A DNA stretch of 64,000 nt, taken from NCBI GenBank assembly GCA_947306425.1, contig CAMZGO010000001.1:1-64000 (forward strand). The letters run 5' to 3'. The translations under genes were made by a program, and so were the position numbers. The stretch's first letter is position 1. The number at the start of each line of letters is the position of its first letter. Source of the stretch: an uncultured Elusimicrobia bacterium. Lineage in GTDB: Bacteria > Elusimicrobiota > Elusimicrobia > Elusimicrobiales > Elusimicrobiaceae. The notes beneath the pieces are model-generated. The model was not told the DNA's origin, searched no databases, and worked only from the letters and a program-made list of their open reading frames with translations. Shown here in pieces: positions 9,475 through 57,089 of the stretch.

Positions 9475-9948
9475 TTAAAAGTAGTAAAAATAGTTACCCC
9501 CGGAGAGTCTCCTTTGTTTTGAGTTTTTACCCGTTGCCGCTTCACAAATTTCTTGCGCTTTGTAATCTGTTTGTTCAGCTGCACAAGCGGAACTATTAGA
9601 AGAATACCATTTAAATATTCGTGCTCCGTTAAACCCGCAACCGCAATACTCTTTGGAAATAAAACAATATCCCCAATCCCAATGAGCATAATTAGTGGGT
9701 GTTCCATTGGTAGGTGGAAGGTCTATATTAATTGATGAAAAATTTCCGGCATATTTTTCTTGTATTACATAATATTCCTGTTGTGCTTTATATATTCTGT
9801 TTACCATAAATATTGCTTGTGTAAACTTTGTTTTGTAGATTATCTTTCTATATCGTGGCAAAGCGATAGCTGCAAGTATACCAATAATTAGGACAACAAC
9901 TAAAAGTTCTATTAAAGTAAAACCTTCGGTAAATTTATTTTTTTGCAT
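9475..9948 (-). CDS. Type IV pilin-like protein
   Basis: Prepilin-like protein, 157 aa. Leader MQKNKFTEG is cleaved before FTLIE (Glu5 present); the helix [19 protein letters not shown] follows. The C-terminal domain is rich in aromatic residues and Cys ([11 protein letters not shown], then [15 protein letters not shown]) and ends NYFYYF. ATG 9948 is preferred over 9978 because AAGGAGAG lies upstream and the leader length is then typical. It is solitary, and its 5' side is occupied by structured RNA copy 2, whose terminator-like hairpin ends about 50 nt before the start. Confidence 0.9.
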
Positions 9949-9996: not shown

Positions 9997-10227
9997 GAAA
10001 AACGGCCATCATATTTGAGGCCGAATAAGAAACTCAAACACAACAGCCGTGCCTTGCCGTATTAACGGCAAGAACTCGGTACAAGATAAAGGGTTTATAA
10101 CGTCCTTTACTTTGCACCTCAACCAGCTGTCTTTGGGCTTATTCGGCGTTTTTGATTTCTCAAAAACTTTGTTTTACTTATGTAAAACCCCAAAAAACAG
10201 ATAAATTTTACAGACATTAAAATGTCT
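9997..10227 (-). ncRNA. Pilin-linked structured RNA, copy 2
   Basis: Same fold as the RNAs near 18.3 and 56.9 kb. On the minus strand: a 5' hairpin ACAGACATT/AATGTCTGT; P1 CTGTTTTTTGGG/CCCAAAGACAG (10200-10189 with 10137-10127) enclosing two hairpins (GTTTTAC/GTAAAAC and GTTTTTGA/TCAAAAAC); hairpins with CCTTTA/TAAAGG and CTTGCCGT/ACGGCAAG; then ACGGC/GCCGT followed by five T. The last loop holds GCCGAATAAG (10020-10029 on plus), perfectly complementary to CTTATTCGGC (10138-10147) inside P1, giving a 10-bp pseudoknot. No known Rfam class came to mind. Confidence 0.75.
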
Positions 10228-16470: not shown

Positions 16471-17567
16471 TGTTCAAGGCAATTGAAACACAAGATGTAA
16501 AAAAATTTGTTGATTTTCCTTTTACTTTGTATAAGGACTGCCCGCATTATATAACTGATTTGAGAAGTAATCTTGTGAAACTTTTAACTACTGACCCTTT
16601 CTGGCAAAACAATGAAAGGGTTTTATTTTTGCTTTATAAAGATGATGAAATTATCGGCCGCATTTGCGCTTTAACTAATATTGCGCATAATAAACATTGG
16701 CAAGATAAAACAGGTTTCTTTGGTTTTTTTGATTGTATAAATGACGTCGGTGCTGCCAATATGTTATTTCATGCAGCATCTGTTTGGCTAAAACATAAAG
16801 GTTGTAAAACTATTCAAGGGCCGGTTAACCCAAGCACAAACCATACATGCGGGGTTTTAGTAGATAATTTTGATAAAAACCCTTTCATTATGATGCCTTA
16901 TAATTTTGCATACTACAATGAACTTATAGAAAGCTGCGGTTTTGAAAAGGCAAAAGATTTGATTGCTTTTGAGCGTACCGACAAAGAAGAAATAAGCCCA
17001 CGCATGCAAAAACTTATAGAACGCTTTAAAAAGAATAAAGATATAAAATTTAGGCCTATAAATTTGCAAAAGTTTAATGAAGAAGTTGACAAAATCTGCA
17101 AAATTTATAATGAATCTTGGGTACAAAATTGGGGTTTTGTGCCGATAAGCGACGCCGAAATAAAACAAACCGCAAAGGAATTAAAAACTATAGTTAAAAC
17201 TGAAATGACTACTATTTGCGAAGTTAAAGAAGAAGTTGCCGCCTTTGCAATTTGCGTACCTAATTTTAACAGGGTTTTAAAAGAGTGGCAGCAAAATAAA
17301 GGTATCAATAAAATCTTAAAATCAATAAAAGCATATATTAAAATGAAAGATTGCCGTATGCTGATGCTCGGTGTTCATCCAAAACACCGCGGACGCGGGC
17401 TTGAACTATTAGTAGTTAATGAAATTATTGAGAACTGTGTTAAAAAAGGATGGAACAAGGCAGAACTTTCTTGGATTTTGGAAGATAATAAAGCGATAAT
17501 TTCCGTCATAGAAGAAACCGGCTGCTACAAAACCAAAACCTACCGCATTTATAATAAAATCATTTAA
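16470..17567 (+). CDS. GNAT superfamily acyltransferase, possible ceramide synthase
   Basis: Large GNAT-fold protein, 365 aa. The acetyl-CoA-type loop LGVHPKHRGRGLELLVVNEII lies in the C-terminal third. The middle has GPVNPSTNHTCGVLVDNF and MMPYNFAYYNELIESCGFEKAKDL, a pattern I associate with the YghO-like family that includes the bacterial ceramide N-acyltransferase. Its ATG overlaps the stop of the SPT-like gene (TAATG), so both are translated together. The 3' end overlaps the convergent pilin gene by 8 bp. Function is inferred mainly from the pairing. Confidence 0.7.
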   Translation: MFKAIETQDVKKFVDFPFTLYKDCPHYITDLRSNLVKLLTTDPFWQNNERVLFLLYKDDEIIGRICALTNIAHNKHWQDKTGFFGFFDCINDVGAANMLFHAASVWLKHKGCKTIQGPVNPSTNHTCGVLVDNFDKNPFIMMPYNFAYYNELIESCGFEKAKDLIAFERTDKEEISPRMQKLIERFKKNKDIKFRPINLQKFNEEVDKICKIYNESWVQNWGFVPISDAEIKQTAKELKTIVKTEMTTICEVKEEVAAFAICVPNFNRVLKEWQQNKGINKILKSIKAYIKMKDCRMLMLGVHPKHRGRGLELLVVNEIIENCVKKGWNKAELSWILEDNKAIISVIEETGCYKTKTYRIYNKII

Positions 17568-18075
17568 AATAATAGCCGTTTACTTGAACGGTAGAACCAT
17601 TAAAAATATAAATACCGGCACTAAATGGTGCCTTTTCCCCTGTAAGAGTTTGACACAAACGATTTGCCCTGTCATTTGTTTTTCGGGTATGAGCGTAGCA
17701 AGCTCTTTTATTTTGGTAATAATAGTAAGTAGCATTTATCGCTAAATCTGAACAACGAGGATTCCCCCCAGCAAGCAACATACATCCCCAAGTATTACCA
17801 TCACAAGATATTCTTTCGTTATTGACTTTTCGACAATTTGGGGGTATATCAATATCTAGATCTATAAAATTTGGATTTTCTTTCAACATTAATGCTCTTA
17901 TTTGCGCTTCATCAATGGCTTTTGTAAAGGCCATAATTTTTGAATATCTTGCTTTATCTGTGGCGAGTTGGTATTTAGGCAAAGCAATAGCCGCCAAAAT
18001 ACCGATAATTAAAACTACAACTAAAAGTTCAATCAAAGTAAAACCCTTATAATTTTTTTGTTTTTCTATGTTCAT
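17560..18075 (-). CDS. Type IV pilin-like protein
   Basis: Prepilin-like protein, 171 aa. Leader MNIEKQKNYKG, then FTLIE with Glu5 and the conserved helix ending ALPKYQ. The C-terminal domain has six or more Cys, including CYAHTRKTNDRANRLC (Cys-x14-Cys), related to loops in the pilins at 4262 and 63543. ATG 18075 follows AAAGGAG; the ORF extends to 18168 without support. Structured RNA copy 1 ends about 100 nt upstream on the same strand. Confidence 0.9.
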   Translation of the reverse strand: MNIEKQKNYKGFTLIELLVVVLIIGILAAIALPKYQLATDKARYSKIMAFTKAIDEAQIRALMLKENPNFIDLDIDIPPNCRKVNNERISCDGNTWGCMLLAGGNPRCSDLAINATYYYYQNKRACYAHTRKTNDRANRLCQTLTGEKAPFSAGIYIFNGSTVQVNGYYFK

Positions 18076-18173: not shown

Positions 18174-18414
18174 CAAAAACGGCTGATTTATATAGGTCTA
18201 AGGAAATGCCCTACATAAATAGCCGTAGTTTATCTTCAAGATAAACATTTAGCACAAAGCAAGAGGGCAATTACTCCCCTCACTTTGTGCTTACAACGAC
18301 TATTTTTGGCTTTCCTTAGAACTTTGTTTTACAAAGCCATCTCTTACGAGATCCAAAAACAGATTCAAATTTTATTAAGCCGCATTAAGGCTTACATTAA
18401 AAATAATACCTCTT
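18174..18414 (-). ncRNA. Pilin-linked structured RNA, copy 1
   Basis: On the minus strand: 5' hairpin TAAGCC/GGCTTA; P1 CTGTTTTTGG/CCAAAAATAG (18362-18353 with 18309-18300) enclosing hairpins ATCTC/GAGAT and CTTTGT/ACAAAG; then AGCACAAAG/CTTTGTGCT, GTTTATCT/AGATAAAC and the final ACGGCT/AGCCGT stem followed by five T. The loop TCTAAGGAAA (18197-18206, plus) is perfectly complementary to TTTCCTTAGA (18311-18320) within P1. Helix positions match the copies at 10.1 and 56.9 kb while the sequences differ, which is strong covariation. Confidence 0.78.
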
Positions 18415-56059: not shown

Positions 56060-56548
56060 CTATGATGCTGATTTGCAGGAGTCACATGCAACAGCTACAA
56101 ACTGCCCTAAAGAACTACAAATAGGTTTGTCTGCCCCGGCATCTTTACAACCTAATTTACCTGACATATATTCTTTACAAATTGCGTATTTTCCATATTT
56201 ACCGGCTTTTCTGGTTGCCTCAACACAAGCCGAAGCTCCGTTTTCACCTGATAGAGTTATTGTAAAGTTCTTACTAGTAAATGAGGCTTTACCCGATACA
56301 GGAGTACCATTCTCATCTGTAAAATCTAAGTCAAGACTAGAAAAATCTGTAGCATACTTATCGTTAACTAGATAATTTCTCTGTTGTGCACCTGCAATAG
56401 AACCAAGTAAAGACAATGCTTCTGAAGCTTTTGATTTCTCAACAGCTTTGAAGTATTGCGGTAAGGCAATTGCTGCCAATATGCCGATAATGAGGACCAC
56501 TACCAGCAATTCAATGAGGGTAAAACCCTTGTTATTTTTTGTATTCAT
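56060..56548 (-). CDS. Type IV pilin-like protein, candidate major pilin
   Basis: Prepilin-like protein, 162 aa. Leader MNTKNNKG, then FTLIE with Glu5 and the full consensus helix ending ALPQYFKAVEKSK. The C-terminal domain is Ala/Ser/Gly-rich, more like ordinary major pilins than the Asn/Tyr-rich copies, and carries CVEATRKAGKYGKYAICKEYM and a Cys-rich tail. GGAG precedes the ATG. The 5' region is long: a seven-codon ORF at 56616-56593 and structured RNA copy 3 further up on the same strand. Calling it the major pilin is an inference from composition. Confidence 0.9.
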   Translation of the reverse strand: MNTKNNKGFTLIELLVVVLIIGILAAIALPQYFKAVEKSKASEALSLLGSIAGAQQRNYLVNDKYATDFSSLDLDFTDENGTPVSGKASFTSKNFTITLSGENGASACVEATRKAGKYGKYAICKEYMSGKLGCKDAGADKPICSSLGQFVAVACDSCKSAS

Positions 56549-56592
56549 TTTTATTTTCTCCTATTATTTTAAATGTATTTTTACTGCAATTT

Positions 56593-56616
56593 TTACTGCT
56601 TAAGGTTTTGTTTCAT
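56593..56616 (-). CDS. Possible seven-residue leader peptide
   Basis: ATG AAA CAA AAC CTT AAG CAG TAA preceded by TAAGGAGG at good spacing, 44 nt upstream of the pilin start. The ribosome binding site is stronger than that of the pilin itself. It could be a translated leader in the pilin mRNA or a chance motif. Confidence 0.35.
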   Translation of the reverse strand: MKQNLKQ

Positions 56617-56819
56617 CGGCTGCCTCCTTACTTTAATTTTCAATTTAGTATTATTCATGTTGTTGTAAACTTATTTTGTAGGGAGGATGGGAGTTTTGGG
56701 AGAAAACTATGTTTTAACCCATCCGCCCTACTTTTCCAGTACCCTTTTTTCTTTATCAGATTATGGGACACCGAAATCTTTTTTGTTTAATCATGCTTGG
56801 AATTAACTTTTTTAGACAA

Positions 56820-57089
56820 TAAAAAACGGCTGATTTCATTCAGTACAGTATCAGCACCCTAAATAAAACAGCCGTAATTTACCGCTAGAATATATTCTAA
56901 CGGTAAACATTCGGCAGACAAAGAACGGCTCATGACTTCCGTCCTCTGTCTGCCTAACTGGCTGTTTTTGGCCTGATACTGTACTTTGGTTTTCCAAAGC
57001 AGACCGTAACTTAATACGGTTCCAAAAACAGTTTCAAATTATACTAAGCCTTTATGCTTTTAGGCTTACATTAAAAATAAAACTCCTTG
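56820..57089 (-). ncRNA. Pilin-linked structured RNA, copy 3
   Basis: Longest copy, about 270 nt. On the minus strand: 5' hairpin TAAGCCT/AGGCTTA; P1 CTGTTTTTGG/CCAAAAACAG, perfect 10 bp (57031-57022 with 56971-56962), enclosing ACCGTA/TACGGT and CTTTGG/CCAAAG hairpins; GGCAGACA/TGTCTGCC and TTTACCG/CGGTAAA hairpins; final ACGGCTG/CAGCCGT stem with six T. The loop AGTACAGTATCAG (56842-56854, plus) pairs perfectly over 13 bp with CTGATACTGTACT (56973-56985) inside P1. The T run suggests termination or attenuation; the pilin starts 270 nt further on. Confidence 0.78.

Follow-up and report, generated by a model that had tools for sequence, protein, structure and literature searches.

A structured RNA upstream of three pilin genes

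The window, that is, the whole 64,000-nucleotide stretch of DNA analysed here, carries three copies of a structured RNA on the minus strand, at positions 56,820-57,089 (copy A), 18,174-18,414 (copy B) and 9,997-10,227 (copy C). The first-pass annotation had assigned a common fold to these three regions, and they are indeed far more stable than dinucleotide-shuffled sequences, with folding z-scores of -10.0, -7.0 and -7.0, respectively, and none of 200 shuffles folding as well in each case. All three copies consist of a P1 core, hairpins P2 and P3 enclosed within P1, hairpins P4 and P5, and a terminator-like hairpin P6 that is followed by a T run. When the window was searched with a covariance model trained on 16 copies from this genome (hereafter R1), no further copy was found beyond these three, all of which are recovered with E < 1e-28 (2e-35 for copy A, at 56,820-57,044; 1e-36 for copy B; 6e-29 for copy C).

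In copy A, the 5' strand of P1 (CTGTTTTTGG, 57,022-57,031) is followed by P2 (57,003-57,020), P3 (56,983-57,000), the 5' strand of a pseudoknot (AGTACAGTATCAG, 56,973-56,985) and the 3' strand of P1 (CCAAAAACAG, 56,962-56,971), which, judging from the sequence, the predicted fold and the pair counts given below, doubles as an antiterminator strand. Next come P4 (56,913-56,954), in which complementarity of loop columns points to the palindrome TCATGA (56,930-56,935) as a putative kissing site, P5 (56,877-56,908), and the P6 terminator hairpin with its T run (56,821-56,875), the 5' arm of which, ACGGCTG, is shared with the antiterminator. The P6 loop contains the 3' strand of the pseudoknot (CTGATACTGTACT, 56,842-56,854). 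The helices and the 5' strand of the pseudoknot are assigned from sequence and covariation, P6 from its fold and covariation, and the 3' strand of the pseudoknot from sequence and pairing.

The perfect pairing of the last loop with a strand inside P1, noticed at the first pass, is present in each window copy (13, 10 and 10 bp in A, B and C), and the partner of the P6 loop is the strand between P3 and the 3' strand of P1; in copy A, the first two or three of the 13 nucleotides overlap P3, which leaves about 11 free. The corresponding strands, identified by sequence and pairing, are TCTAAGGAAA (18,311-18,320) and TTTCCTTAGA (18,197-18,206) in copy B, and GCCGAATAAG (10,138-10,147) and CTTATTCGGC (10,020-10,029) in copy C. 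By sequence, the P4 loop of copy B contains TAATTG (18,268-18,273), a palindrome with one G-U pair, and that of copy C contains the palindrome TTATAA (10,095-10,100); the P6 terminators of these copies span 18,175-18,226 and 9,998-10,050.

Each window copy is followed on the same strand by a pilin gene, as previously annotated, at 56,060-56,548, 17,560-18,075 and 9,475-9,948 for A, B and C, with the start codon 271, 97 and 47 nt past the RNA, respectively. All three proteins contain the N_methyl motif (39.7, 38.8 and 28.9 bits). Between copy A and its pilin gene, at about 56,580-56,625 on the minus strand, the sequence AAGGAGG...ATGAAACAAAACCTTAAGCAGTAA includes a possible seven-codon open reading frame.

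Size and spread of the RNA family

Searching this genome and other Elusimicrobiota with a covariance model, as proposed in the first-pass annotation, recovered a large family of RNAs of about 180 to 270 nt. Further copies were found by BLAST with copy B, and R1 detects about 47 sense-strand copies in this 1.44 Mb genome (E < 1e-6). The same model identifies copies in 80 of 84 genomes overall (all 18 from the genus of the window and, from a second genus, 62 of 66), with one to at least 39 copies per genome across the two genera. The broader model R2 and the model R3, which represents a core form, also recover the RNA in other genera of the same bacterial family, in a second family of this order (f2) and in a more distant family of the phylum (f21), and a closed 1.6 Mb genome of another genus contains a single core-like copy; a distribution limited to two genera, as R1 would have it, was rejected because R2 and R3 matches lie outside both. 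The core form is shorter, the putative P4 kissing hairpin being absent, and comprises P1 to P3, the pseudoknot, P6 and a single simple hairpin. In this genome, R3 indicates five candidate places, each followed by a pilin (at one of these, C10:1750, R1 had also given a weak match). Records that contain the terminator pattern are, by title and with one exception, from Elusimicrobiota, with rumen and faeces among the sources, and the host of the window is a gut bacterium; a scan of IMG/VR revealed no viral sequence with the exact pattern. At L340:1268-1700, on the minus strand, a tandem pair of RNA copies precedes a single gene, the protein product of which resembles the one encoded after the core-form copy of L344.

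The 5' hairpin that had been described as part of the fold is present in copy A (TAAGCC/GGCTTA, 57,045-57,068) but is an accessory rather than part of the family core: in the second genus, many of the RNAs begin about 20 nt before P1. In the window (57,083-57,068, minus strand) and in many leaders of genus g1, this hairpin is preceded by a -10-like box, AGGAG and an AUG immediately followed by a stop codon (AUG-UAA in copy A), an arrangement that is missing from many leaders of the second genus. A universal 5' start-stop reading frame was rejected, with 35 copies containing an AUG directly followed by a stop codon and many containing none.

Covariation of the helices and the pseudoknot

For the 16 copies underlying R1, 91% of the cells pair, compared to 79.6% after shuffling, and both sides change in 42 of the 63 pairs; in 60 further copies, the values are 96.4% and 83.5%, the pairing percentages taking no account of kinship and the significance of the shuffle test being inflated by the relatedness of the sequences. 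For the pseudoknot, the respective values are 87.6% and 46.5%, with changes on both sides in all 10 pairs, and sliding the partner by a single column reduces the pairing to 34-45%. Of 145 copies, only a few lack the pseudoknot, which is also present in divergent core forms. This covariation supports helices P1 to P6 and the pseudoknot, and the strong signal in homologs upholds the initial view of a structured RNA family with a pseudoknot. In one fragmented genome, two copies (L085:1501-1722 and L163:855-1078) have pseudoknot strands that are mismatched in cis, either an assembly chimera or a real recombinant.

Genes downstream of the RNA

The link to pilins holds for the three window copies but does not extend to a general rule, given that the next gene of other copies is often not a pilin gene. 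In this genome, a same-strand pilin motif begins no more than 450 nt past the RNA for 25 of the 47 copies, against a chance expectation of about 1.8% per site. There are 108 pilin-like N_methyl motifs in the 1.44 Mb genome, so that most pilins lack an R1-type RNA; in the window, only three of the seven pilin motifs are accompanied by one. Among the other downstream genes are those for TPR proteins, LicD, glycosyltransferases, beta-barrel outer-membrane proteins, SNase and TM2/RDD proteins, along with restriction-modification components (a type III methyltransferase, restriction-like helicase or HsdR_N proteins). The RNAs appear to constitute a large regulatory family, unlisted in Rfam, ahead of many variable surface and restriction genes in a little-studied phylum.

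A self-complementary loop in P4

In most copies, the apical loop of P4 is self-complementary and remains so despite sequence change. Columns 128 and 131 of the 60-copy alignment are complementary in 60 of 60 copies, with four pair types, and the adjacent columns 129 and 130 are likewise complementary in every one of the 60 copies, through three pair types. Adjacent bases cannot pair with each other within one strand, so this constraint points to intermolecular (kissing) pairing. In 178 of 192 distinct P4 loops of 9-10 nt, the four bases at a single, fixed offset form a palindrome, compared to 0-19 loops at other offsets, and nine tetramers are represented (AATT, TATA, CATG, GATC, AGCT, TGCA, TCGA, CTAG and ACGT). 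In the 9-nt loops (164 of the 192), a hexamer is flanked by two unpaired bases on the 5' side and one on the 3' side. This pattern, which the first-pass annotation missed, fits a putative kissing site through which the RNA could form homodimers; a TAATTA loop, with six AU pairs, would be a weak kiss.

The flanking bases also bear on the possibility that the copies are a repeated mobile DNA element, the hairpins and palindromes of which are DNA features (recombination or transposition sites, or template-switching products) rather than parts of an RNA. The range of copy numbers between related species, the location of several copies close to contig ends in fragmented assemblies, and P4 loop types that differ between close paralogs would all suit such an element. 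A perfect DNA palindrome, however, would be symmetric throughout, whereas the loop retains the asymmetric arrangement expected of RNA kissing; moreover, the copies face the next gene, the covariation in all helices and in the pseudoknot is that of an RNA, and there is a terminator at the end. We consider a mobile DNA origin of these features very improbable.

The P4 region is also where a protein could act: an antiterminator, for example an ANTAR- or LicT-like one, could choose between folds by binding at P4/P5 or at the P1 junction. Conservation of the lower P4 stem, the P4-P5 junction (GA-RY) and the base of P5 is compatible with a binding site, palindromic loops would suit a dimeric protein, and in at least eight copies P4 is replaced by a second type with an AGUA/GAA-like internal loop, six having a GACG tetraloop. 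A protein that reads sequence would nevertheless not tolerate nine different palindromes, and it is complementarity, not sequence, that is maintained in the loop, which makes control by such a protein unlikely. The eight copies with the second type of P4 probably share ancestry. Because P4 is missing from the core forms and replaced in these copies, dimerization cannot be essential to the core switch described next.

Mutually exclusive pairings and the attenuation model

The 3' strand of P1 and the bases that follow it (AACAGYCGT) are complementary to the 5' arm of the terminator, ACGGCTGTT, and this pairing is used in the minimum free energy fold of copy A. By comparison of the sequences, the P1 and terminator pairings on the one hand and the predicted antiterminator on the other are mutually exclusive, a feature that had escaped the first-pass annotation. 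At the P1-strand/P6a pair, 142 copies contain CG (126), UA (8) or UG (8) and none contains CA, such that the A in P6a is found exclusively opposite a U in the P1 strand (8 of 8). In divergent core forms, both antiterminator strands change, e.g., AATAATCGCC/GGCGATTATT, the sequence of the divergent set being too conserved for a cross test on the antiterminator alone to discriminate. The antiterminator count on A2 is weak, with 16 to 225 of 500 shuffles reaching it on most measures, and the alternative pairing is partly constrained by the sequence common to P1a and P6a. Constrained folding of 125 copies, with energies that are nearest-neighbor estimates leaving out pseudoknot costs, favors the antiterminator by a median of 9.3 kcal/mol before the 3' arm of P6 exists, and the terminator form by 5.3 kcal/mol once this arm has been made.

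The conserved, covarying P6 hairpin and T run constitute an intrinsic terminator ahead of the gene. From the T run to the start codon, the median distance is 39 nt, and in 61% of the copies with an assigned gene it is below 60 nt (no gene was assigned for 23 of the 145 copies, some of which are cut off by the end of the available sequence). Such a distance leaves little room for another promoter. In three leaders (L067, L015 and L001), the T run is directly followed by a GGCTG-type motif with complementarity to the 3' arm of the terminator, so that a further hairpin could arise in the readthrough RNA.

A mainly independent small RNA, terminated at its own P6 and acting in trans as a homodimer, with the neighboring gene expressed via leak-through, would be consistent with the compact, stable fold, the strong terminator, the promoter-like box that many copies possess, and the dimer signature in the P4 loop. 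The copies with an assignable gene, though, face this gene on the same strand at the short spacing given above, the antiterminator covaries, and some 50 diverged copies in a single genome, each by a different gene, would be unusual for a trans-acting RNA; accordingly, we find this account quite improbable. Of the roles proposed at the first pass, the leader position and the mutually exclusive pairings favor the attenuator: the RNA probably attenuates transcription in cis, from the 5' leader of accessory genes that are for the most part pilin genes, and in most copies could homodimerize.

The fold, the pseudoknot, the exclusive pairings, the constraint on the palindrome and the leader position all emerge from comparison. 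Under the attenuator model, termination would be conditional. When P1 holds its own 3' strand, the P6 terminator would form and transcription would stop; when, instead, the 5' arm and loop of P6 take the P1 3' strand and the adjoining pseudoknot strand, an antiterminator would result and the gene would be read. The copy-specific pseudoknot with the P6 loop, about one helical turn, could either start this exchange or lock the terminator state. In the copies with a palindromic P4 loop, that is, most of them, two leaders might kiss, forming dimers in the cell, and the switch would then depend on a second, like transcript; the direction in which dimerization acts on the switch is something we infer.

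Variable contact sites

In 112 pairs of copies whose helices are at least 0.85 identical, sequence identity is 42% for the pseudoknot and 51% for the P4 loop, compared to 75% for P2, 88% for P3, 91% for P5, 92% for P1 and 97% for the lower part of P6. Between close paralogs in these alignments, the pseudoknot and the P4 loop are the most divergent paired elements. The P5 loop (52%) and the upper P4 stem (53%) vary as well in the same pairs, so that weak constraint, rather than diversifying selection, could in part account for the divergence of the contact sites. In four cross-species pairs of RNAs that are 93-99% alike, the pseudoknot is unchanged. Avoidance of like pseudoknots within a genome was rejected, as same-genome and cross-genome pairs differ equally.

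Tentatively, each leader could carry two addresses, a copy-specific pseudoknot of 8-13 bp and a palindromic kissing loop drawn from a small set, and self-recognition among about 50 paralogs of one cell would set the readthrough into the leader's own gene. If so, self-sensing RNA attenuators would amount to a gene-specific feedback code for surface and defense genes.

Comparison with known RNA classes

The absence of a known class, claimed from the sequence alone, is corroborated by a search of Rfam, in which neither the window copies nor 14 full-length and 14 divergent loci matched any family at gathering thresholds; this search covered riboswitches, T-boxes and other classes, including GOLLD, ROOL and OLE, and relaxed thresholds yielded nothing meaningful. 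A literature search found no paper joining Elusimicrobiota, pilin and riboswitch.

A riboswitch for a metabolite or second messenger could be built on the same platform, with P1, P2 and P3 forming a three-way-junction aptamer, the pseudoknot closing the pocket and driving termination, and P4 as decoration. The leader position and the terminator/antiterminator logic are what such a riboswitch would require, the short conserved bases around the P1/P2/P3 junction (GGAA, GAG), shared by full and core forms, are in line with it, and the downstream genes resemble a single regulon within one phylum. Yet, for a metabolite pocket, conserved unpaired bases are few, being confined to these short junction motifs, and the loops are variable; the element supposed to close the pocket is the most variable paired element; and neither the varied surface and restriction genes nor Rfam riboswitch models offer a match or a metabolic clue. 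On balance, a riboswitch seems rather unlikely.

The proposed attenuator resembles other transcription attenuators and riboswitch platforms in its 5' leader position, intrinsic terminator, and antiterminator that uses a strand of an upstream helix, and differs from attenuators in general in that the terminator loop makes a one-turn pseudoknot to an upstream domain, the sequences are copy-specific and there is a palindromic, putatively kissing hairpin. The dimerization initiation site (DIS) of HIV-1 has a 9-nt loop in which a hexamer is flanked by two loop bases on the 5' side and one on the 3' side, and the 9-nt P4 loops, with a 6-nt palindrome and the same flanking bases, are alike in geometry. 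The GACG tetraloop seen in a minority of copies is the self-complementary kissing loop of MoMuLV and MoMuSV (PMC7357161). Unlike these viral sites, the P4 loops lie in bacterial leaders, with many palindromes per genome and a putative dimer, and the RNAs are unrelated. In the guanidine-II (mini-ykkC) riboswitch, a pair of small ACGR hairpins of the same RNA kiss around guanidine (PMC7357161); the putative common feature is a leader in which like hairpin loops kiss, whereas here there is one such hairpin per leader and no match to the Rfam family. The ornate RNAs GOLLD, ROOL and OLE, one of which has a name that refers to its rumen origin, have been shown to form homo-oligomers (PMC12286853); they too are structured bacterial RNAs, but the present family is not large (about 180-270 nt), lies ahead of genes, carries a terminator and matches none of them in Rfam. 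Functional RNA oligomers have been described as seldom observed in nature (PMC7357161), and the covariation of the P4 palindrome would represent an evolutionary signature of RNA-RNA dimerization in a bacterial leader.
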